Under the pieces are notes generated by a model. The model made no database searches. It saw nothing but the letters and a program-made list of their open reading frames with translations, and was not told the DNA's origin. The position numbers and the translations under genes are program-made. 10,178 nucleotides of DNA from Gammaproteobacteria bacterium (lineage in GTDB: Bacteria; Pseudomonadota; Gammaproteobacteria; GRL18), in the NCBI GenBank assembly GCA_030632625.1, contig DAOVUK010000071.1:1-10178 (forward strand). Direction: 5' to 3'. Shown piece by piece: positions 2 to 9,844 of the stretch. The stretch's first letter is position 1, and the number at the start of each line of letters is the position of its first letter.

Positions 2-322
2 AATGAAAATATCCTTCATCAAATCATTATTACAGAAGGTTCCAAAACCTATTTGACCAGAAATGTATCCGAAGATAACAAAGATCAGCTATTTAAGCCC
101 TACAAAGACCTTTGTGCGGTTATCGGAAATATGATTTTAGAATGTAATTCAAACTACAAATACCCAAAATCACTAGCTTCTACGATCATTGAAATGGCAC
201 ATTTTCAGAATTTTTTTATGAAAAACCTGCCTTCGCTGACTGATTTTGGGGGGAATAAAGATGAATTAGAAATTATTTATTTTCTGGAGGATTTAGTTTT
301 TTCCACTATCCATAGAACATAA
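2..322 (+). CDS. 3' end of an unrecognised protein gene (5' end outside window)
   Basis: The reading frame is open from the first bases of the window to a TAA at 320-322, giving at least 106 residues. The only in-frame start-like codon near the edge is a TTG at 53, with no convincing ribosome binding site, so the gene almost certainly begins outside the window. The visible part is soluble-looking and mixed in charge, with acidic stretches such as NKDELEIIYFLEDL near the C-terminus. There is no signal peptide, membrane segment or family motif that I recognise. It lies on the side of the tRNA scar that should be the original chromosome, on the opposite strand to the metal operon, so it is probably unrelated to it. 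Function unknown. Confidence 0.55.
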   Translation, partial: NENILHQIIITEGSKTYLTRNVSEDNKDQLFKPYKDLCAVIGNMILECNSNYKYPKSLASTIIEMAHFQNFFMKNLPSLTDFGGNKDELEIIYFLEDLVFSTIHRT

Positions 323-566
323 AAAAACTTCAAACCGGACTAAAATAAATAATACTGATTTGTCCCGGTCTGAGCAATCAATATTGACTACACTATTCCA
401 TAACTAATTTTTTAGAAAGCCCGCTTTTGGCTGACAAGAGCCAGTCAGAAACTTGATATTAACAGCTTAAACTTTAGGAATGTTTAGACCGGATAATACG
501 AGTTTGATTGTTGTAGCTTGTGGCGCTTTGTTGCTTTGAAGTGCCCCATGAGTGCCCCGCAGACAT
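323..566. other. intergenic stretch, no gene seen
   Basis: No frame on either strand gives a believable start, ribosome site and length. Small features are visible: an 8-bp direct repeat AGTGCCCC at 540-547 and 551-558, and related ACCGG words at 334-339, 365-371 (CCGGTCT) and 486-492 (AGACCGG), the last two being exact inverted copies. A short stem TGGCT/AGCCA lies near 429-444. Any of these could be recombinase arm sites beside the tRNA scar, but nothing proves it. Confidence 0.5.
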
Positions 567-598
567 AAAAAAAGCCCTAGCATTTCTGCTAAGGCTTT
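567..598 (-). terminator. Rho-independent terminator downstream of the tRNA-Asn fragment
   Basis: A 12-bp stem lies at 571-582 and 587-598 with a 4-nt loop (583-586). Read on the minus strand it is followed directly by a run of seven T (567-573 as A on the + strand, partly within the stem). The one imperfect pair is a G-U wobble on the minus strand but a C-A mismatch on the + strand, which favours minus-strand use. It sits just past the 3' end of the tRNA fragment, where the terminator of an intact tRNA-Asn gene would be, and could also end the long minus-strand operon. Confidence 0.8.
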
Positions 599-606
599 GT
601 TTTGTA

Positions 607-653
607 TGGCTCCCCCGGACGGGCTCGAACCGCCGACCTAGTGATTAACAGTC
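607..653 (-). tRNA. tRNA-Asn(GTT) 3' fragment, probable attachment-site scar
   Basis: Read on the minus strand this gives the anticodon loop CTGTTAA (anticodon GTT at 649-647), the 3' side of the anticodon stem (TCACT), variable loop AGGTC, a complete T arm (GGCGG-TTCGAGC-CCGTC), the acceptor 3' strand CGGGGGA, discriminator G and encoded CCA (609-607). The 5' part is missing: the bases before the loop do not pair with TCACT, and no D arm or TCCCCCG acceptor 5' strand is found upstream. A tRNA cut at the anticodon with an intact 3' end is the usual mark left at one end of an element integrated by a tyrosine recombinase. By that logic the inserted DNA lies at higher coordinates, and a restored tRNA should be at its far end. 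It cannot make a working tRNA. Confidence 0.8.
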
Positions 654-670
654 GATATGATGGCTGTTAA
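645..670. repeat. inverted repeat of the anticodon-loop word at the att edge
   Basis: TTAACAG at 645-651 and CTGTTAA at 664-670 are perfect 7-bp inverted copies separated by 12 bp. The left copy is the tRNA anticodon loop; the right copy lies in the presumed element DNA. Paired inverted core-type sites around the crossover are typical of tyrosine recombinase att sites, so this may be part of the recombination core. The pairing is exact, but the role is inference. Confidence 0.4.
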
Positions 671-682
671 CTCCTGTTGCTT

Positions 683-707
683 TATTATGCAGTTTTCATT
701 CATAATA
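683..707. repeat. AT-rich inverted repeat after the operon's last gene
   Basis: TATTATG (683-689) and CATAATA (701-707) form a perfect 7-bp stem with an 11-nt loop, 12 bp past the stop codon of the last operon gene. It is weak (one G-C pair) and has no T run on the minus strand, so it is a poor terminator. It could stabilise the transcript end or be chance. Confidence 0.3.
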
Positions 708-718
708 CAAAGAGCCCC

Positions 719-3175
719 CTATTTTTTACGAAGTCGTAGCGAATTGGCTATTACTGATAACGAACTCAAGGCCATTGCCGCTGATGAAATAGTTGGATTT
801 AATTTCCCCCCCATTGCAAAAGGTATAGCTATGGCATTATAGCCAAACGCCCAAAACAGATTTTGCTTTACTACAGCAAAAGTCTGCTTACTAAGGTCGA
901 GTATTTCAGCTACTTTAGATATATCACCATCAATAATAACAAAATCAGCAGCTTCTATTGCTATACCTGCTGCATTACCAATTACTAAACCAACATTTGC
1001 CGCAGCCAATGCCGGGGCATCATTAATCCCATCTCCTACCATAGCAACTACCCTGCCCTTTGCCTGCAAATCTCGAATAATTTGTATTTTTTTTGCCGGA
1101 CTAGCCTGAACAGTAACCGTATCAATTCCCGCCAACTCTGCTATAGGCCTGCTTGCTGCCTCCGTATCACCTGTTACCATCAATGTTTCTATGTCCTGTG
1201 CACGCAAAATATCAATTAGCTGCCCTACCCCTTCCCTGATATGGTCCTGCAAAGCAAACAGGGCAAGTACTTTGTTATCAACTACCATATAAATTAATGT
1301 ACATCCATGCAATGCCCATTGATCTGCTGTTTCTTTCAGCATAGTCAAATCAATCTTTTGTTCATTTACCCAATGTTTATTACCCAACAAAACTTCATGC
1401 CCATCAACTTGGGATCGCACCCCCTGATCTGGAATAGAATAAAATTTAGATGACTTAAAGAGTGTCAATCCCTTTGCTTTTGCATATTTGACTATGGCTT
1501 TGCCAAATAAGTGCTCTGAGTTAAATTCAACGGAAGCAGCAAGCTGGACCACATAACTATCATCCAATGCTGAAATATTCATAAAATCAGATACTTTGGC
1601 ATGCCCTTCTGTAAGCGTTCCCGTCTTATCAAAGATCATAGTATCAATTGATGCCATGAATTCTGATGCATTACCATTGCGTATATAGACTTTTCGCCTG
1701 GCAGCCTGCCCCGAACCTACGCTAGTAGCGGCCGGTGCAGCCAGACCCAATGCACAAGGACATGAAATTAACAATACAGAGACTGCATTAGCAAATGCAT
1801 GAGCAACCCCCACTCCTCTGGCCAGCCAGCCTCCAAATGTCACTGCCGATAGAAACATAACGGATGACATCAAATGAGAAGATACGAGGTCAACTGTATT
1901 TTGTAGCTGCATCTTTGAACTCTGGGTCTGGTCAATCATATGCACCAGACTTGCTAGCATTGTATTCTTACCAATTGCAGTAGCCTTCATCCTCAAAACA
2001 CCGCTGCCATTAATACTGCCATCAAATAACTGCTGCCCTTGTTCTTTAATGCCTGGCATATTTGAACCGGTGATTATCGACTCATCTACACTGGAAAGTC
2101 CACTGATAACAATGCCATCAACTGGAATTCGTTCTCCTGGTCTAACCAACAGGACATCATCAACTTGTATTTTCTCTGTAGCAATTAGAATTTCATTTTC
2201 ACCTTGTAGCAAAGTGGCCATTTGTGGCTGCATATTTACCAACGCTTCAACCTCATGCACCATCTTGTTTTTTGCTAACTCTTCAAGATAACGCCCCAAC
2301 TGCACGAACCCAATAATAGCTGTGGCGGCATCAAAATAGCTATGTCGTCGCAAATTAAACATGGATGGAACACTCATCACAAAAGCAGAACCCGCTCCTA
2401 TTGCAATCAGGCTATCCATTTTTAATGTTTTCTGCCTAGCTTGAAGCCATGCTTTTTTAAAGATGTCTCCTCCACCAACAAGAATAACAACTAAACTTAA
2501 TCCAGCTTGCAACAATCTTAATTGCCTACTCCTAGCGGAAAGTAAACCCGTAATCATTGCAGGGATGCCAAGCAATGAAATCAGAATCAATCGTTTTTTA
2601 GTCGTCAGCAAATGTTTTTTCTCGTGCTCCAACAATAACTTCCGCTCGGCTAAAGTATCAATTGAATAGGCTTGATAACCATTATCCTCAATTATTTTAA
2701 AAATCTCTGCCTTACTTAAATAACCACTAACCGTCCCAATTTCTGACATGTAGTTAATATTGACATGCGTATTATCCTTTTCCCTGGACAACACCATTTC
2801 CAAAAACAAGGCGCAGGAGGCACAACTCATTCCGCCAATTCCAAAAACCACATCCTGTTGCAGACCATCTCGTCGCACCTCCTGTTTAGCAATCTTTTTT
2901 ATACTTTCTCGTGGTTTTTGAGAAAAATTGGCTAGTACAATCTCCAATAAATTAAGCAAATTTACTTTTGGAAATTGTTCAGGGTTAAATAGAATAGTGA
3001 CAGAATTTATTTCCGTAACAATCCTTACCTGCTCAATCGCCTCTCTTTTTAATAGTAGAATTTGTAAAATATAAGCACGTTCCTTATCTCGAAATAAACT
3101 TGGAGCAATAATTCTGATTCGGCGTTTTAATTGATGTGCAATGGTAAACTGACTAAATTCATGAATTTGAGACAT
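719..3175 (-). CDS. Cu+-type P1B ATPase with HMA_2-like plus HMA N-terminus and altered catalytic loop
   Basis: This 818-residue protein is a heavy-metal P-type ATPase of the inner membrane. Residues ~10-70 resemble an HMA_2-type domain without Cys, and ~108-170 are a classical HMA domain with GMSCASC (C118, C121). Eight membrane segments follow. The metal-site residues fit Cu+ transport: CPC (C472-P473-C474), YN in segment 7 (Y779, N780), and Met/SS in segment 8. The phosphorylation site DKTGT (D516) and GDGIND (714-719) are intact. Other key positions are not: the actuator TGE loop reads TGSN, with Ser371 in place of the Glu that drives dephosphorylation; the nucleotide-binding GxG reads DQG (D583-G585); and the HP motif is HL (H555). 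It may therefore be a slow or non-pumping ATPase. It is last in the operon, 67 bp after the reductase gene, with a weak ribosome site. Family certain; transport activity doubtful. Confidence 0.9.
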   Translation of the reverse strand: MSQIHEFSQFTIAHQLKRRIRIIAPSLFRDKERAYILQILLLKREAIEQVRIVTEINSVTILFNPEQFPKVNLLNLLEIVLANFSQKPRESIKKIAKQEVRRDGLQQDVVFGIGGMSCASCALFLEMVLSREKDNTHVNINYMSEIGTVSGYLSKAEIFKIIEDNGYQAYSIDTLAERKLLLEHEKKHLLTTKKRLILISLLGIPAMITGLLSARSRQLRLLQAGLSLVVILVGGGDIFKKAWLQARQKTLKMDSLIAIGAGSAFVMSVPSMFNLRRHSYFDAATAIIGFVQLGRYLEELAKNKMVHEVEALVNMQPQMATLLQGENEILIATEKIQVDDVLLVRPGERIPVDGIVISGLSSVDESIITGSNMPGIKEQGQQLFDGSINGSGVLRMKATAIGKNTMLASLVHMIDQTQSSKMQLQNTVDLVSSHLMSSVMFLSAVTFGGWLARGVGVAHAFANAVSVLLISCPCALGLAAPAATSVGSGQAARRKVYIRNGNASEFMASIDTMIFDKTGTLTEGHAKVSDFMNISALDDSYVVQLAASVEFNSEHLFGKAIVKYAKAKGLTLFKSSKFYSIPDQGVRSQVDGHEVLLGNKHWVNEQKIDLTMLKETADQWALHGCTLIYMVVDNKVLALFALQDHIREGVGQLIDILRAQDIETLMVTGDTEAASRPIAELAGIDTVTVQASPAKKIQIIRDLQAKGRVVAMVGDGINDAPALAAANVGLVIGNAAGIAIEAADFVIIDGDISKVAEILDLSKQTFAVVKQNLFWAFGYNAIAIPFAMGGKLNPTISSAAMALSSLSVIANSLRLRKK

Positions 3176-3242: not shown

Positions 3243-4976
3243 CTAATCCTCATAGGCAGCATAAGTTTGCATTCCGCCTGATAGATTACGCACTTGAAAA
3301 CCATGCTGCTGTAGTATGCGTGTTGCGTTATACGCTCTTTGCCCCACACCACACACTACCCATATTTCTCGTTCCTGAGACAATTCATGCAAACGTTCCC
3401 GCAAAGAATCCAAGGGTATATTAACAACCTGAGGAATATGCTTACGCTGAAATTCCGCTTCAGTACGTACATCAACAAGTTGAGCCTGAGCAAAAGGGTC
3501 ATCCATAATTAATGACAACATCTGAATAATATCATCTTGCTCTTCTGTTACCTGGGCATGGGATTCTACCAATTGCTCCCACTTGGCCAAAGGGTGATTA
3601 CCACGTAAATGATTGGCTGCTATCATACCCGCCAGGTTAACAGGGTCTTTAGTAGCTCCAAATTGAGGCGCATAACACAACTCAGCTTCTTCTAAATCAT
3701 AGACTGTTCCACCCATTTGCAGAAATGCAGCAATCACATCAATTCTTCTTGCTACACCAGACTCCCCCAATGCTTGCGCACCAAGAATTTTGCCATTTCG
3801 GGCATCATAAAGTAACTTGATATGAATGGGGCTAGCGCCCGGGTAATAACCGACATGATTACTGGGATGCAAATACACTTTTTCGTACTCAATAGAGGTA
3901 CAGTTTTTAAGTATTTTTTCATTTACACCTGTGGTAGCGACTGTCAATCCAAACACGCCGCATACGGTCGTACCTTGAATTCCACGATAAGGCACAGAAG
4001 GAATAGTGCTCATTTTTTTTCTAACGATGTCAGTTGCAGCTAATCGTCCTTGCTTATTTGCAGGCCCCGCCATAGGAAATAACTGCCATTCATCGGTGAT
4101 GATATTTTTAACTTCAACCACATCTCCTACTGCCCAAATACTAGGATCACTGGTTTGAAGGTATTCATTTACTCGAATACCTCCATACGCACCTATATCC
4201 AGACCAGCCTGTATAGCCAACTCTGCACGCGGTTTTACTCCAACAGAAATCATAACTGCATCCACAGTCACTTGCTCGCCAGATTCAAGCATTATTTGTA
4301 ACGATCCATCTTTGTTTTGTGCAATTTCCGTAGTCTTGCAGCTCAACCTTAAATCTATTCCATGTTTCATTAGGTGCTTAGCAACATAAGTTGCCATTTC
4401 TTGATCCAGACTAGACATAACCTGTTCAGAATATTGCAATACGGTAACCTGTACATCACGTTTTATCAGATTTTCAGCCAACTCCAAACCTAAATACCCC
4501 GCACCCATGACAACAGCACGCTGAATATTTTTTAATTCCGAGCGAATCTGTCGACTATCGGGAATGGTTCTTAAGACATGTACTCCAGGTAAATCAAGAC
4601 CTGCTATATCAGGCCAAACTGACTGTGAGCCTGTCGATAGGACTAATGCATCATAATGCTCAAGGCGTTGAACATCAGTTTTTAAATCACGAACTGTAAT
4701 AGACTGATTTTCTTTATCTATAGACAAAACCTGAGTATCAGTACAAACACGAATATTAAACCGGCTTTCAAACAATGCAGGGGTTGCAACCAGCAATTTA
4801 TCTTCTTCTACAATGACGTCGCCAATAAAGTAAGGTAATCCACAATTAGCAAAAGACACATAGGGGCCCATCTCATAGATGACAATCTCACATTCTTCAT
4901 ATAATCGACGGACCCGAGCTGCACAACTTGCCCCTCCAGCAACACCACCAACAATTAAAACTCTTTTTTTCGACAT
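3243..4976 (-). CDS. CoA-disulfide / persulfide reductase fused to rhodanese (CoADR-RHD)
   Basis: This 577-residue cytoplasmic flavoenzyme uses NAD(P)H to reduce CoA disulfide, CoA persulfide or polysulfide. Visible parts: FAD-binding VGGVAGG (9-15), the family active-site stretch SFANCGLPY with C45, NAD(P)-binding VMGAGYLGLE (156-165), FAD-binding WAVGDV (281-286), and the conserved YAPQFGATKDPVN (435-447) of the dimerisation domain. A rhodanese domain covers ~475-577, with catalytic loop CGVGQR (C542). Its architecture and length match characterised CoADR-RHD enzymes and NADH-dependent persulfide reductases. The ATG at 4976 was preferred to a TTG at 5006 because the FAD motif starts straight after it; a weak AGGG lies about 10 nt upstream. 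It sits between the EcsC gene (50 bp gap) and the second ATPase, placing thiol/persulfide chemistry in a copper operon. The exact substrate cannot be told from sequence. Confidence 0.92.
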   Translation of the reverse strand: MSKKRVLIVGGVAGGASCAARVRRLYEECEIVIYEMGPYVSFANCGLPYFIGDVIVEEDKLLVATPALFESRFNIRVCTDTQVLSIDKENQSITVRDLKTDVQRLEHYDALVLSTGSQSVWPDIAGLDLPGVHVLRTIPDSRQIRSELKNIQRAVVMGAGYLGLELAENLIKRDVQVTVLQYSEQVMSSLDQEMATYVAKHLMKHGIDLRLSCKTTEIAQNKDGSLQIMLESGEQVTVDAVMISVGVKPRAELAIQAGLDIGAYGGIRVNEYLQTSDPSIWAVGDVVEVKNIITDEWQLFPMAGPANKQGRLAATDIVRKKMSTIPSVPYRGIQGTTVCGVFGLTVATTGVNEKILKNCTSIEYEKVYLHPSNHVGYYPGASPIHIKLLYDARNGKILGAQALGESGVARRIDVIAAFLQMGGTVYDLEEAELCYAPQFGATKDPVNLAGMIAANHLRGNHPLAKWEQLVESHAQVTEEQDDIIQMLSLIMDDPFAQAQLVDVRTEAEFQRKHIPQVVNIPLDSLRERLHELSQEREIWVVCGVGQRAYNATRILQQHGFQVRNLSGGMQTYAAYED

Positions 4977-5026
4977 TGTTACATAGCCCTGTGATCTATT
5001 TAACAAATACTGGATTCAAAAATTCA

Positions 5027-5857
5027 TCAAGCAATTTCTGCTACCCCCCAATCCCTGGAATTATGTTTACGATTATATTTAACGATATCCTTATACAAAT
5101 CTTCCACCACCTTATCACCATATTTTCTTTCCAGAGCACGAATCGAAAAATGTGCTTTTGCCATTTTTTGATAATGCCGAATAAACAGCCAATTCACTGA
5201 TGCACCACTGACCGCCCCTACAACTGGTAAACTTTGAGCAGCCAGCTTTCCCGAAACCGGAATAGAAAATCGTGCCGAAACAGCATTGATTAATTTAACC
5301 AGGACAGGGGCACCCTCTTTGGAAAAACCATGCACTGCAATATGATTTGTCGTGTCACCCAGAGCCTTAGTTAAAAATGACCGTACCGCATAATAACTGG
5401 TATCTGCCGACTCAGAAGTTTTTGCAGAACCCCCACCACTCAAAGCAAAAACAGTTAAACAAGCCATTTTACTATCAAGTTCTTCCAGATCTTCCCCATA
5501 ACTTCTAGCAATATCGGCAATAGAACGTAGCATGATGGTTGCTGAGACCGGTAATTCAACTGCCAAAGCTGCAATGCCGAACGACCCACCTACAGCGCCA
5601 CTGACTCCAACGAATAATTTGTGAATTTTGTTTTTTGGTTTACCGGGTTTTCTTTTAAGAGAATAAAGTGCAGCATCCAATGCCTTTTCCAAGGCTTTTT
5701 TGGTAATTCGTGAAACGATATTTGACCAATGTCCGGGTAATGCTGTCATTGCCTTTTCTATAGGCATACCAATTATATGACTAATTGATGTTGCCAAACT
5801 TGATGACTCTAGTTGTTGAGCTGCATTTGCTAATACTACCGAATCAGCCTGTTGCAT
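5027..5857 (-). CDS. EcsC-family protein
   Basis: A 276-residue protein of the EcsC family (named after a Bacillus gene beside an ABC transporter; biochemical role unclear). The signature region is at ~80-130: a glycine-rich hydrophobic stretch (GVSGAVGGSFGIAALAVELP) followed by MLRSIADIARSYGEDLEE. A second Gly/Ala-rich hydrophobic stretch lies at ~200-235 (LPVVGAVSGASVNWLFIRHY), and the C-terminus is charged with ALERKYG. There is no signal peptide, so it is probably membrane-associated from the cytoplasm. The length is normal for the family. Its ATG overlaps the stop of the upstream membrane-protein gene by one base (TAATG), with AGGG 6 nt before it, indicating translational coupling. Its place in a metal operon is the main clue to its role; a function in membrane protein maturation or stability would be inference. 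Confidence 0.85.
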   Translation of the reverse strand: MQQADSVVLANAAQQLESSSLATSISHIIGMPIEKAMTALPGHWSNIVSRITKKALEKALDAALYSLKRKPGKPKNKIHKLFVGVSGAVGGSFGIAALAVELPVSATIMLRSIADIARSYGEDLEELDSKMACLTVFALSGGGSAKTSESADTSYYAVRSFLTKALGDTTNHIAVHGFSKEGAPVLVKLINAVSARFSIPVSGKLAAQSLPVVGAVSGASVNWLFIRHYQKMAKAHFSIRALERKYGDKVVEDLYKDIVKYNRKHNSRDWGVAEIA

Positions 5858-6669
5858 TACATACCCTGAATATTGCTCATCATTACATTGATAAATTCGA
5901 TCAACTGATTCAATAATAAAATTGCATCATCAATTTTTTCTTTTAAAAAATGTAAAAATGTACGGTGCTTAAAGTCTTCTTCCACATAAAAAGTTAATCC
6001 TTTATGAATGGTATTTAAGCCCATAAAAATCATAATCACTGCAGCGGCTTTCAGCATTAAGCCTCGAAGCCCTGCTCCCATTTTGCCAAATGCCACACTA
6101 ATAAATAACATGGTTGGCAATGTCCCTGCACCAAATGCCAGCATTAATGATCCACCTTCCCAGATAGTTGTAGCCGATGTTGCCTCTACATACATAGCAA
6201 AAGTTAATGGACAAGGCATCAGCCCATTCAAAAATCCGGCTATCATTGCTCCAACAACCGGACCTTTAGTCCTGGCTTTGGCATAGCCTTTACGCAATAA
6301 GTCCATCGGTAGTAACTTGACTGAACCTTGCCATGGAATTAACCCCAAAATACCAAGTGCCAAAATAACCACAATCGACCCAATGACCATTTGCAAAATA
6401 CTTTGAAATTTTCCAAACAGGCCGCCTGATACCAACACTACACCTAATGATGCAGCTAATAGCCCTATCAGCACATAAATAAATATTCGAGTTAACTGAT
6501 ATGCAAAATAAGGTAAATAAGACTTTTTCTCACCTACATTCATAAAATAGCCGGAGACTAAAGCTCCGCACATTCCCAAACAGTGTCCACTACCCAAAAA
6601 ACCTGCAATAAAAGCCAATGTGTAATCAAATCCAGTGGCCGCAGCCATTTGGTGCATAGAATGATCCAT
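5857..6669 (-). CDS. TauE/SafE-type (UreH_2-like) membrane protein with possible copper ligands
   Basis: A 270-residue polytopic inner-membrane protein with about six membrane segments (~16-38, 48-78, 84-110, 138-162, 167-190, 198-222) and a soluble C-terminal tail. The first segment carries GSGHCLGMCG (H29, C30, C34), the hallmark of the UreH_2 branch often labelled 'sulfite exporter TauE/SafE family'. Segment four has NGLMPCPLTF (C153), where relatives usually have PCG. The N-terminus MDHSMHQM is Met/His-rich, as in copper-binding tails. Members of this branch are commonly found beside Cu+ ATPases, so copper (or cytochrome oxidase assembly) is a better guess than sulfite. The ATG at 6669 was chosen over a TTG at 6672 because AAGGA lies 6 nt before it. 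Only 9 bp separate it from the preceding ATPase gene. Confidence 0.85.
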   Translation of the reverse strand: MDHSMHQMAAATGFDYTLAFIAGFLGSGHCLGMCGALVSGYFMNVGEKKSYLPYFAYQLTRIFIYVLIGLLAASLGVVLVSGGLFGKFQSILQMVIGSIVVILALGILGLIPWQGSVKLLPMDLLRKGYAKARTKGPVVGAMIAGFLNGLMPCPLTFAMYVEATSATTIWEGGSLMLAFGAGTLPTMLFISVAFGKMGAGLRGLMLKAAAVIMIFMGLNTIHKGLTFYVEEDFKHRTFLHFLKEKIDDAILLLNQLIEFINVMMSNIQGM

Positions 6670-6675
6670 CAAATA

Positions 6676-6680
6676 TCCTT
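6676..6680 (-). promoter_or_regulatory. ribosome binding site that decides the TauE/SafE start
   Basis: AAGGA on the minus strand lies 6 nt before the ATG at 6669 and overlaps the TAA stop codon (6681-6679) of the upstream ATPase gene. The alternative TTG at 6672 would have a spacing of only 3 nt. The overlap of stop and ribosome site suggests coupled translation. Confidence 0.7.
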
Positions 6681-8583
6681 ACTTTTTACTAAGCCTCAAT
6701 GAATTAACAATAACTGATACCGAACTTAAAGCCATTGCTGCCGATGCCACCATGGGGTTCAACTTTCCTAAAGCCGCCACTGGAATAGCAATCGTGTTAT
6801 AACCAAAGGCCCAAAACAGATTCTGCTTAATAACATTGATTGTATCAGTGCTTAATTCTATCGTTTCTGTCACTTTGGAGATATCCCCTTGCACTAAAGT
6901 CAAATCAGCTGATTCAATTGCAATGTCTGTACCACTACCTATTGCAAAACCTACATTAGCTGCTGCCAAAGCAGGAGCGTCATTAATACCATCACCAATC
7001 ATACCAACTTGCTTACCTTCAGCCTGTAACTGCCTTATTATTTCAAGCTTTTCATCCGGCTTGGCATTTGCTATGACTTGTTCAATACCCACTTTTGCGG
7101 CAACATAATTTGCTGTTTTTTCTGTATCACCTGTCACCATTAATGTTTCAATACCTAAATGATGTAACCGTGCAATCGCATTCCTAGCTTCCTGCCTTGG
7201 TTTGTCTGCTATACCAAAAACTGCCGCCCCTTTTCCATTAACTGCCATATATACAGGTGTTTTACCCTGCTCCGCAAAGTGACCTGCTTCGTTCATTAAT
7301 CCCTCAACGCTTATAGCATGGTCATCCATCCAAAACTTGTTACCTATTAGTATTTTTTTTCCTTCAATTTCTGCTTCTATTCCACGCCCAGTTCGACTAT
7401 AAAAATGGCTACATTCCATCTGATCAATTGATTGTTCATTAGCATATTCAACAATTGCTTTTGCCAAAAAGTGTTCTGAATTGTTTTCGGCTGATGCTGC
7501 CAGAGCAATAATCTTATCCTTCCCAAGTCGTGATTTTTTGAAAAAATCAGTCACTTTAGGCTTTCCCTCTGTTATCGTTCCCGTTTTATCAAAAACAATA
7601 GCATTTAACTTAGTGGCCACTTCCAGGCTTTCACCATTTCGTATATAAACCCCCTTCTTTGCAGCTTGTCCAGTTCCAACCATAATAGCTGCCGGCGTTG
7701 CCAACCCTAAAGCACATGGACATGCAATCAACATTACAGTGACAGCACTGCCAAAAGCAGTCGCAAAAGGAGCACCTACCAGCATCCAGCTCGCAAAGGT
7801 CAACCCTGAAATCGCCATCACCGCCGGCACAAAAACAGCTGAAATTTTATCGACATGTTTCTGAATAGGTAATTTTGTCGCTTGTGCCTGATCAACCATG
7901 TGCACTATACCCGCCAATACAGTATCCATACCTATGGCTGTCGCCTTAATATGCAATACCCCATTACCATTAACACATCCTCCGATTACTTTATGCCCCA
8001 CCTCCTTAACTACAGGCATACTTTCACCCGTTACCATGGCCTCATCAACCGTGGAAATACCAAAAATAACCTCAGCGTCAGTTGGTATTTTTTCACCAGG
8101 CCTAACCAGTAGAATATCCTCTAAAGTAATATCATCGACATCAATCAGTATTTCTTCACCATCGCGTAGCAAAGTGGCAGTTTGTGGTTGCAGATCAACT
8201 AGTTTACGAATTGCTTCTCCGGCTTTCCCTCTGGCTCTTTCTTCAAGATAACGCCCTAGCAACACAAAAGTAATAATCGCTGCCGCTGCCTCAAAATACA
8301 TATGACCTCTACGCCTATATATTACAGGCAAGCTATACCCATAAGCAGAACCAACACCTAATGCGATCAAAGTATCCATATTAGCGGCTTTTTGTTTAGC
8401 CAATAGCCAGGCTTTAGTAAAAAACTGCCTTCCTGTACCAAAAACGACGGGAGTTGTTAAAATAAATTGTGCCCAGTGTGCCCATCTGGACTTATTCATT
8501 GACATTGCTATAGCAATAACAGGCGTACTTAGAATTGTGGCCCATACAAAACTTTTGCAGGAACAATAAACATTCAGACACAA
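6679..8583 (-). CDS. copA: Cu+-transporting P1B ATPase, N-terminally truncated (no metal-binding domain)
   Basis: This 634-residue P-type ATPase starts right at the first membrane segment (SFVWATILSTPVIAIAM), whereas CopA proteins usually carry 100 or more residues with one or two CxxC HMA domains before it. The catalytic core is complete: actuator TGES (E187), CPC in the membrane (C288-P289-C290), DKTGT (D332), nucleotide-binding GRG, MVTGD, GDGIND (530-535), and C-terminal FGYN and MALSSVSV typical of Cu+ pumps. The only deviation is HF instead of HP (H371). The first ~11 residues (MCLNVYCSCKS) are unlike the family and probably arise from junction DNA. Translation could begin at the TTG at 8583, which has AAGGA 5 nt upstream. 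It is first in the operon. It may be a shortened active pump or a 5'-truncated gene. The C-terminus NSLRLSKK nearly matches the other ATPase (NSLRLRKK), suggesting duplication. Confidence 0.85.
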   Translation of the reverse strand: MCLNVYCSCKSFVWATILSTPVIAIAMSMNKSRWAHWAQFILTTPVVFGTGRQFFTKAWLLAKQKAANMDTLIALGVGSAYGYSLPVIYRRRGHMYFEAAAAIITFVLLGRYLEERARGKAGEAIRKLVDLQPQTATLLRDGEEILIDVDDITLEDILLVRPGEKIPTDAEVIFGISTVDEAMVTGESMPVVKEVGHKVIGGCVNGNGVLHIKATAIGMDTVLAGIVHMVDQAQATKLPIQKHVDKISAVFVPAVMAISGLTFASWMLVGAPFATAFGSAVTVMLIACPCALGLATPAAIMVGTGQAAKKGVYIRNGESLEVATKLNAIVFDKTGTITEGKPKVTDFFKKSRLGKDKIIALAASAENNSEHFLAKAIVEYANEQSIDQMECSHFYSRTGRGIEAEIEGKKILIGNKFWMDDHAISVEGLMNEAGHFAEQGKTPVYMAVNGKGAAVFGIADKPRQEARNAIARLHHLGIETLMVTGDTEKTANYVAAKVGIEQVIANAKPDEKLEIIRQLQAEGKQVGMIGDGINDAPALAAANVGFAIGSGTDIAIESADLTLVQGDISKVTETIELSTDTINVIKQNLFWAFGYNTIAIPVAALGKLNPMVASAAMALSSVSVIVNSLRLSKK

Positions 8584-8625
8584 TCGATTCCTTTATAATA
8601 TAGATTTGTTATTTCCCTCTATTAA

Positions 8626-8841
8626 AGACCATGTCTACACGGTAACAATGACTATGACGGCACTACTGCACTTAATAAAGCAATAGCTGAATTGGTTGGC
8701 TGCAATCCCAAAAACAATACCAAATTATCTCAAATAATTAAGGTGTCAATGCTGAATTTAGGGATAACATCAAAAGCCAAAAACAAATCAACAGAAATGA
8801 AACTGGAAATCTATAAGCACATAAAAAACGATTATCACTAA
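8626..8841 (+). pseudogene. 5'-truncated coding remnant (C-terminal ~65-70 residues)
   Basis: After a TAA at 8623-8625 the frame runs open to a TAA at 8839-8841, encoding a plausible polar, Lys/Asn-rich tail (NNDYDGTTALNKAIAELVG ... HIKNDYH). No ATG precedes most of it. The first in-frame starts are a TTG or GTG inside the segment without good ribosome sites. It lies on the other side of the apparent junction from the truncated ATPase and shares strand and spacing (31 nt) with the next small gene, so it looks like the end of a gene whose 5' part was lost. Family not recognised. Confidence 0.45.
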
Positions 8842-8859
8842 ACAACCCCCTCTTATGTC

Positions 8860-8864
8860 GGGAG
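8860..8864 (+). promoter_or_regulatory. ribosome binding site for the 27-aa ORF
   Basis: GGGAG lies 8 nt before the ATG at 8873. It sits in and beside the loop of a small hairpin made by ATGTC (8855-8859) and GACAT (8864-8868), so folding could modulate access to it. The motif is clear; regulation is inference. Confidence 0.5.
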
Positions 8865-8872
8865 ACATTAAA

Positions 8873-8956
8873 ATGACTAAAGCAAAGAAACAACCATTAG
8901 AACACTTTGATACTATTTCCTGTCCTGTTAAAGCAGGCGGTATGCAGGATGACTGA
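8873..8956 (+). CDS. 27-residue small ORF, possible leader peptide
   Basis: The ORF MTKAKKQPLEHFDTI... ends in CPVKAGGMQDD. It has a good ribosome site (GGGAG, 8 nt spacing) and its stop codon lies inside the next gene, overlapping that gene's start by 8 bp. This suggests it is translated and coupled to the DUF5681 gene. It has two basic residue clusters and no membrane segment. No family is recognised, and it could be only a leader for the downstream gene. Confidence 0.45.
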   Translation: MTKAKKQPLEHFDTISCPVKAGGMQDD

Positions 8957-9365
8957 ACGTAATTGTGACGGCACTTTTAAAAAAGGTGTGAGCGGTAACA
9001 GTAAAGGAAGAGAATCTGGTAAAAAAGCAAGCGCAAAGCTTAGAAAGGCAATTGAAACAGAAGCGAACGACATTATCAAAGTGTTAGTCAAACAGGCTAA
9101 GGATGGCGATATACAGGCGGCTAAAATTTTACTGGATAAAACCGTCCCCTCTTTAAAACCTCAAGCATTACCCATAAACATTCCTGTAGGCGAAACTTTA
9201 CCTGACACAGGCAGTAATGTAGTCGATGCGGCAATGACAGGAAATATTCCACCCGATATAGGGACGCAGCTAATTAGGGCTTTGACTGACCAGTCGAAAT
9301 TAGTCGAATTGGAAGAAATAAGTAAACGATTAACCAGGCTTGAAAAGCAACTGGAGGCCAGATAA
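8949..9365 (+). CDS. DUF5681-like protein (phage small-terminase neighbourhood)
   Basis: A 138-residue protein. The N-terminus has DGTFKKGVSGNSKGRESGKK (7-26), a close match to the FKPGQSGNPKGRP-type motif of the DUF5681 family, found in prophages and other mobile elements, often next to terminase genes. Residues ~27-60 are a charged helix (KLRKAIETEANDIIKVLVKQAKDGDIQAAKILLDK), and the C-terminal ~25 residues (LEEISKRLTRLEKQLEAR) form a probable coiled coil for oligomerisation. The ATG at 8949 was chosen over an in-frame TTG at 8907 because the family motif begins right after it and AGGCGG lies upstream. It overlaps the 27-aa ORF in front and the next gene by one base (TAATG). A DNA-binding or packaging role is inferred from context, not shown. 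Confidence 0.75.
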   Translation: MTERNCDGTFKKGVSGNSKGRESGKKASAKLRKAIETEANDIIKVLVKQAKDGDIQAAKILLDKTVPSLKPQALPINIPVGETLPDTGSNVVDAAMTGNIPPDIGTQLIRALTDQSKLVELEEISKRLTRLEKQLEAR

Positions 9366-9844
9366 TGAAACAACAGCAGGTTAATAAACTCTATAGTAAG
9401 CTAACACCGCAGGAACAATCCGCGTTGTTATTTGAAGCTGCTATCAGAAAAGATGAAAATGAAGTTGATTTGATACTTGATTACGTTGAGATGCGGACAT
9501 ACTCAATACCGCACCTAAACTATCAGCAACGGATGACTGGGCTTATTAATCTATCTGGGTGTTATGGGATAGCTTATTGGAAAACGCTTTGCCAGTTAAG
9601 TGTATTAATAGCACTTTCTTTAGATGATAAAAGTTTTGATGAGACAGCCCGACTATTTATAAAAAAAATAAGTTCTATGGATGTAGCACTAGAGGCAGTA
9701 TGTAAAGAATTAAAGATTGATGTATCGTCAATTAAACAATTTTCTGAATGCAACGACTATCATCCTAATTTTGATGTTGATATAAAAAACCAATTCATTG
9801 ATCAGTACACTGAGATTTTTTCTAAAACAGCTTATTTAAACTAA
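9365..9844 (+). CDS. unrecognised protein coupled to the DUF5681 gene
   Basis: A 159-residue protein of unknown function. The start is secure: GGAGG (9353-9357) lies 7 nt before the ATG, which shares its A with the TAA of the gene in front. The N-terminal half looks helical (LTPQEQSALLFEAAIRKDE, then VDLILDYVEM), with a central hydrophobic segment near YWKTLCQLSVLIALSL that is more likely a buried helix than a membrane span. The acidic C-terminal half contains DVALEAVCKELKIDV. There is no signal peptide and no known catalytic motif. Its coupling to the DUF5681 gene suggests a shared process in a phage-like or mobile module. Confidence 0.7.
   Translation: MKQQQVNKLYSKLTPQEQSALLFEAAIRKDENEVDLILDYVEMRTYSIPHLNYQQRMTGLINLSGCYGIAYWKTLCQLSVLIALSLDDKSFDETARLFIKKISSMDVALEAVCKELKIDVSSIKQFSECNDYHPNFDVDIKNQFIDQYTEIFSKTAYLN

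Follow-up and report, generated by a model that had tools for sequence, protein, structure and literature searches.

What does a copper ATPase do when the glutamate that resets its pump cycle is missing, and is such a gene an accident or a protein with another task? The question is raised by a locus in the window, i.e., the whole stretch of 10,178 nt that was analysed (contig DAOVUK010000071.1 of a gammaproteobacterial metagenome-assembled genome, or MAG). In the cycle of P-type ATPases, binding of the metal together with ATP leads to a phosphorylated aspartate (E1P), and the metal leaves in the E2P state. The Glu of the (T/S)GE loop in the A domain drives hydrolysis of the aspartyl phosphate and thereby lets the pump reset. 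The loop is called invariant in one paper (PMC9433437), and a review states that a Glu is present in all pumps (PMC10654040). The features of the window that bear on the question are as follows.

719..3175, minus strand: TGE-less P1B-type ATPase homologue, 818 aa, with an HMA_2-like plus HMA (CASC) N-terminus, CPC and DKTGT
1427..1429, minus strand: codon GAT of Asp583, where the nucleotide-binding GxG normally has its first Gly
1628..1630, minus strand: codon GAT of Asp516, the phosphorylation aspartate of DKTGT, kept
1754..1762, minus strand: codons 472-474, CPC of the membrane Cu(I) site, kept (coordinates worked out from the codon numbers)
2063..2065, minus strand: codon TCA of Ser371, at the place of the (T/S)GE phosphatase Glu
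3243..5006, minus strand: CoA-disulfide/persulfide reductase with a C-terminal rhodanese domain, Npsr-like (PF07992, PF02852, PF00581)
5027..5857, minus strand: EcsC-family protein (Pfam)
5857..6672, minus strand: DsbD_2 membrane protein (PF13386)
6679..8583, minus strand: second P1B ATPase with intact TGES and GxG, an active-type paralogue without N-terminal metal-binding domains

The reading frame at 719-3175 on the minus strand is open over 818 codons. Its product scores 495.7 bits against TIGR01511, the copper P-type ATPase model, above the cut-off of 397. A Pfam HMA match at residues 111-167 exceeds its cut-off, and an HMA_2 match at residues 9-76 (27 bits) falls slightly under the cut-off of 30. 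The membrane copper features are all found, i.e., CPC in M4, Tyr-Asn and Met-x-x-Ser-Ser, and the motifs DKTGT, CPC (472-474), TGD and GDGIND are all intact. Two other features of P1B-1 ATPases are absent: the phosphatase Glu, with residues 369-374 reading TGSNMP and Ser371 at the Glu position, and the GxG loop, which reads DQG at 583-585. A third, the HP motif of the N domain, is incomplete, with His555 kept and the Pro missing. The preliminary description had reported TGSN with Ser371 in place of TGES, DQG in place of GxG, and DKTGT, CPC and GDGIND retained within 818 open codons; all three readings are confirmed, the serine codon being TCA at 2063-2065.

A protein search gave 4687 matches, and the best 120 of the 4687 (P0001-P0120) were aligned. 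Among these, P0001-P0087, which are 50-100% identical to the window protein, lack Glu at 371 in 87/87 cases, and P0088-P0120, which are 46-49% identical, carry it in 33/33. The opinion that a single sequencing error was unlikely is borne out by the 87 closest listed homologues, which are likewise without the Glu. Alignment with other P1B ATPases, the check proposed in the preliminary description, shows that TGE loss and DQG are conserved subfamily traits; the contrary outcome named there, that close relatives all carry TGE, fails, as the closest 87 of the 120 listed do not have the Glu. Thus the TGE loss is more general than the window sequence alone could reveal.

Counts at single sites cover the 85 clade members of more than 700 residues, without P0079 and P0087. 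The comparison rows are the 33 active sisters and 84 other P1B ATPases from loci L010-L088, L010 and L011 being active paralogues from Methylococcales. Glu371 is present in 0/85 clade members, 33/33 active sisters and 84/84 other P1B ATPases. The clade has Ser (58), Ala (16), Thr (4) or His (3) at this position, with Val, Gly, Leu and Asn once each. One clade member on a long branch, P0072, reads TGAE, with the Glu shifted one place on, and DKSGT. A maximum-likelihood tree was made by a quick method from 66 rows (35 clade members and 31 others), with the TGE, GxG and pre-CPC columns removed. The loss of the Glu maps to one change on this tree (SH-aLRT 99), and the nearest non-clade row is L140 from genome G332, an active ATPase of the order Methylococcales. 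On the tree the clade arose once within the HMA_2-bearing copper ATPases of Methylococcales, and that it is real we consider nearly certain. Its nearest relatives are the HMA_2-bearing active P1B ATPases of that order (6679-8583 in the window; P0088-P0120), which have the same N-terminal layout in full-length members. They differ from the clade in having TGES and GxG, in 33/33 listed, and they usually adjoin two small genes and DsbD_2.

The distribution of the clade was assessed in 311 genomes of Methylococcales, the order of G024 (a Methylococcaceae MAG), with three candidates scored per genome. Among the matches listed, 165/311 genomes have one at E<=1e-150, and clade members are present in at least 18/311 (G024, G104, G105, G106, G139, G179, G182, G222, G223, G235, G241, G242, G243, G245, G246, G278, G280 and G281). 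Because only three candidates per genome were scored, among the matches listed, fragments may be missed; remnants in G224, which is outside the 18 carriers, were found only via its reductase. The carriers appear to include the cultured methanotrophs Methyloprofundus, Methylomarinum and Methylotuvimicrobium. PmoA is found in 15/18 carriers, the three without it having assemblies of 1.7 Mb (G235), 2.2 Mb (G280) and 3.4 Mb (G278). In 13/18 carriers a TGE-bearing active paralogue was read. At E<=1e-200, 369 gammaproteobacterial genomes gave no clade member beyond Methylococcales, the MAG of the window excepted. Five of the 369 matched, with at least 50% identity only in G024 and G242, both Methylococcales; the motif is TGE in the matches of G541 and G418, and the motif pattern gave nothing for the match in G060 (L161). 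L009 is the only clade locus among the best 80 of 590 confirmed related loci. Broken copies were also seen: L138 (G278) has an in-frame stop, L157 (G224) consists of remnants, and L141 (G223) is broken by an insertion, in a genome that looks like that of a Bathymodiolus symbiont.

The MAG that holds the window (G000) is 81.6% complete and 3.6% contaminated, and it is the only one among 24 genomes of its order with the clade gene at E<=1e-150. In the tree the TGE-less ATPase of the window groups with Methyloprofundus sedimenti (P0011), and the active one pairs with Methylomarinum vadi (P0098). The named neighbours of another P1B ATPase of G000, among 120 listed, include sulfur-oxidising snail and worm symbionts and Thiotrichaceae. 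A pmoA search of G000 gave no match, nor did 14 control genomes, and the same family was matched in 15/19 genomes elsewhere; searches of G000 for ribosomal S7 and RpoB found nothing. The orphan ORF at 9365-9844 has no match in 23 relatives of G000, which says little about the host. The window contig is probably that of a methanotroph, co-binned in the MAG of a sulfur-oxidiser-like bacterium; a transfer of the gene row into the species of G000 is possible. The question of the host leaves the clade result untouched. G000 itself seems mixed, a sulfur-oxidising symbiont-like genome together with methanotroph-like contigs (C120, C75). In the region 176-3018 of G000:C75 (L002) there is a second TGE-less copy, partial, at the contig end and 82% identical; after it come an EcsC fragment and a stand-alone HMA protein of 175 residues with a clade-like N-terminal part.

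Selection was assessed by pairwise dN/dS (Nei-Gojobori). With pairs that share genomes and are not independent, whole-gene dN/dS ranges over 0.047-0.158 across 14 clade pairs, dS being saturated (>1.5) in two, and over 0.025-0.074 across 11 active-paralogue pairs. The clade value lies above that of the active paralogue in 10/11 matched pairs for the whole gene, 9/11 for the A domain and 6/11 for the P+N domains; for the latter the two ranges are comparable (0.014-0.145 in the clade, 0.050-0.103 in the active paralogue, 11 matched pairs). Mean within-domain identities are lower in the clade for most domains, in an unmatched comparison. The clade is under purifying selection, and the earlier statement that the gene is under constraint is supported by its whole-gene values. 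From the dN/dS comparison the constraint is strong yet slightly weaker than on the active pump, most consistently in the A domain. A sequencing error, a one-off mutation or a decaying pseudogene could point to the in-frame stop, the insertion and the remnants in G278, G223 and G224. However the Glu loss is common to the 87 closest listed homologues, the second, partial copy on G000:C75 is also without the Glu, and dN/dS is far under 1, and an accidental origin is highly improbable. For the clade as a whole, all three are ruled out by the homologues, the single-origin tree and dN/dS.

The sites that the clade has kept are those of copper loading and of phosphoryl transfer. All 85 members have both Cys of the HMA CxxC, the entry Glu298, the first Cys of CPC, Tyr-Asn and Met801, and all 85 have Asp516, Lys517, Thr520, His555, Asp670, Lys696, Asp715 and Asp719; Asp429, Thr518 and Asn718 are each present in 84/85. 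The second Cys of CPC is kept in 79/85, the others reading CPY (4) or CPS (2), and the SEH Glu is kept in 76/85. Thus copper or nucleotide binding may be decaying in some members, as shown by the 6/85 without the second CPC Cys and the 9/85 without the SEH Glu. The members with CPS or CPY and an intact DKTGT are P0044, P0049, P0050, P0053, P0059 and P0060, and L132 (G139) is of the same kind. In these variants the loss of copper binding would have followed that of the phosphatase Glu and preceded any loss of the phosphorylation Asp.

Other positions have changed across the clade. The copper-exit acid, assigned by alignment to LpCopA Glu189, a residue tied to copper release in PMC5428812, is Asp in 42 members, Glu in 17, Asn in 13, Ser in 8, Gly in 4 and Ala in 1. 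It is thus non-acidic in 26/85, against an acidic residue in 33/33 active sisters and about 75/84 other P1B ATPases. The first Gly of GxG is Asp in 83 and Glu in 2 of the 85, and Gly in 117/117 comparison rows. Residue 471, beside CPC, has changed from Ala to Ser in 84/85, and residue 526 from Pro to Ala in 78/85. The Pro of the HP motif is found in 0/85 clade members and is also missing in the 33 active sister rows; as it is missing in both alike, it is unrelated to the change in the clade.

The clade resembles the P1B-1 Cu(I)-ATPases (CopA, ATP7A/B; TIGR01511) in sequence, domain order, HMA CxxC, CPC, Tyr-Asn and Met-Ser-Ser, and in DKTGT, TGD and GDGIND, and the fold of the window protein matches ATP7B, HMA4, AfCopA and LpCopA. 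It differs from them in having no (T/S)GE Glu, an acid at the first Gly of GxG and a relaxed exit acid. The clade is a P1B ATPase by descent and fold. However, since two defining catalytic features fail, it is not to be classed as a copper-exporting pump. It should be noted that KdpB, when the serine of its TGES is phosphorylated, is also a P-type ATPase stopped at the phosphatase motif, according to PMC10654040. KdpB retains the Glu and its block is reversible, whereas in the clade the Glu is absent from the genome.

Judged from these sites, the requirements of the first half of the cycle appear to be kept, and those of the second half lost or loosened. The simplest reading would be a protein open to loading and phosphorylation yet unable to reset. 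The sensor, partner or phosphorylation-biased pump of the preliminary description would fit this pattern of kept and lost sites. We tentatively favour, at somewhat less than even confidence, an ex-pump that may serve as a copper-gated phospho-switch or partner and not as a cycling exporter. The clade protein would load Cu(I) from the cytosol and could be phosphorylated on Asp516, but hydrolysis of the aspartyl phosphate would be too slow to be of use. It would thus run half of the Post-Albers cycle and stay for long in a phosphorylated or occluded form, from which spontaneous hydrolysis, protein turnover or another phosphatase might release it. Its role may then be that of a copper-gated switch, a slow timer or a copper-occupied partner, the candidate targets being the active paralogue, the persulfide reductase or the assembly of cuproproteins.

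The chief problem for the switch lies at 583, where the acid may hinder the binding of ATP and with it phosphorylation; a model built on a phosphoenzyme would then be weakened. In the published model of ATP7B the Gly that matches 583 contacts adenine (PMC3203118), and an acid there may therefore weaken ATP binding or alter the choice of base. A preference for guanine, brought about by an acid close to the base, is speculation. The same adenine contact and the acid in 85/85 members would suit a non-catalytic partner that neither binds ATP usefully nor is phosphorylated, either a copper-binding scaffold or a regulatory subunit that forms a heterodimer with the TGES paralogue, which was read in 13/18 carriers and in the window belongs to the same gene row. 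However the phosphoryl-transfer site, Asp516 included, is invariant in 85/85, which a pure scaffold would not need, and a partner of this kind is rather unlikely.

A pump that is slow but complete should also be considered. Another acid, or spontaneous hydrolysis, would take the place of Glu371 and give a low-turnover transporter, for example one that loads copper enzymes. Clade-specific acids are found in or near the A domain at 308 (82/85) and 385 (72/85), one member reads TGAE, and the copper path is mostly retained. Set against these, the exit acid is relaxed (26/85 non-acidic) and CPC is incomplete in 6/85, and we regard the slow pump as unlikely.

The genes at 3243-5006, 5027-5857, 5857-6672 and 6679-8583 lie upstream of the TGE-less gene on the same strand. 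The window reductase has both the catalytic-type Cys of SFxNCGLPY and the rhodanese Cys; by pattern, the former is present in 101/103 and the latter in 90/103 of the reductases P0121-P0223. It resembles Npsr in its FAD reductase with a C-terminal rhodanese domain and in both catalytic-type Cys. It differs in that its score against the CoA-disulfide reductase model (436.8 bits) is under the cut-off of 578.8, and an Npsr activity is here only predicted.

A reductase gene is directly upstream of the clade gene, on the same strand, in 13/18 carriers (G179, G182, G222, G223, G235, G241, G242, G243, G245, G246, G278, G280 and G281) as well as in the window. The gap between the match ends is 19-593 bases in 12 of the 13; in G223 the ATPase gene is interrupted by an insertion, and its 5′ piece adjoins the reductase. 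In G024 the reductase follows the active ATPase, DsbD_2 and EcsC near a contig end, and another contig begins with the clade gene; this layout fits the gene order of the window, the two contigs not being shown joined. G104 and G106 have the reductase elsewhere in the genome, and no close reductase was found in the carriers G105 and G139. In G104-G106 a pyruvate:ferredoxin oxidoreductase (identified by Pfam in G104) is the neighbour, and in G246 a fructose-bisphosphate aldolase and a transaldolase are upstream of the clade gene. Reductases of at least 67% identity occur in 16/18 carriers vs 2/293 other genomes (Fisher p 9e-23, a value that ignores shared descent). The two non-carriers are G332, in which the sister ATPase is active, and G224, with its ATPase remnants. 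Through guilt by association, the neighbouring persulfide reductase hints at a connection between copper and reactive sulfur or thiol redox. An adjoining reductase of the persulfide type, together with the retained membrane copper site, could also mean that the membrane part of the pump has become an energy-independent carrier or channel, for copper or linked to thiols or persulfides. This is quite improbable, with cytosolic catalytic domains as strongly constrained as the P+N values given above indicate.

The active paralogue in the window is itself incomplete. Full-length relatives have about 813-848 residues and lie downstream of two small genes (C11, C27). Because the N-terminal domains and C11 and C27 are missing (6679-8583, 8584-8900), its 5′ part seems to have been lost or rearranged. 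On the plus strand at 8907-9844, a DUF5681 gene and the orphan ORF (9365-9844) abut the truncated ATPase row. At L010 (1924-2898) and L144-L156 the two small Pfam-less proteins (C11, C27) regularly come before the active paralogue, and DsbD_2, at times with EcsC, comes after it, in what looks like an undescribed copper gene row.

Taken together, the points for a switch are the kept copper and phosphorylation sites, Glu371 in 0/85, the relaxed exit, one origin, low dN/dS, the adjacent reductase and the presence of an active paralogue. Those against it are the CPC and SEH losses, the broken copies, dN/dS above that of the active paralogue in 10/11 pairs, and G105 and G139, which have no close reductase. 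A more specific form of the switch is possible though doubtful: a half-cycle P-type ATPase, i.e., a selected single-origin subfamily in which copper loading and aspartyl phosphorylation would be kept, dephosphorylation deleted and metal release relaxed. Such a protein would be a copper-triggered phospho-switch that works in one direction and is tied to persulfide redox in methanotrophs; the invariant acid at GxG might also have altered its choice of nucleotide.

Among the matches listed from the open-access literature there is no TGE-less P-type family. A natural TGE-less clade, maintained across members as distant as 50% identity, would to our knowledge be the first P-type ATPase subfamily of its kind. 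The clade would make testable the idea of a P-type ATPase as a stable copper-dependent switch. As methane oxidation in the carrier methanotrophs is copper-dependent, the protein is a candidate part of methanotroph copper control.
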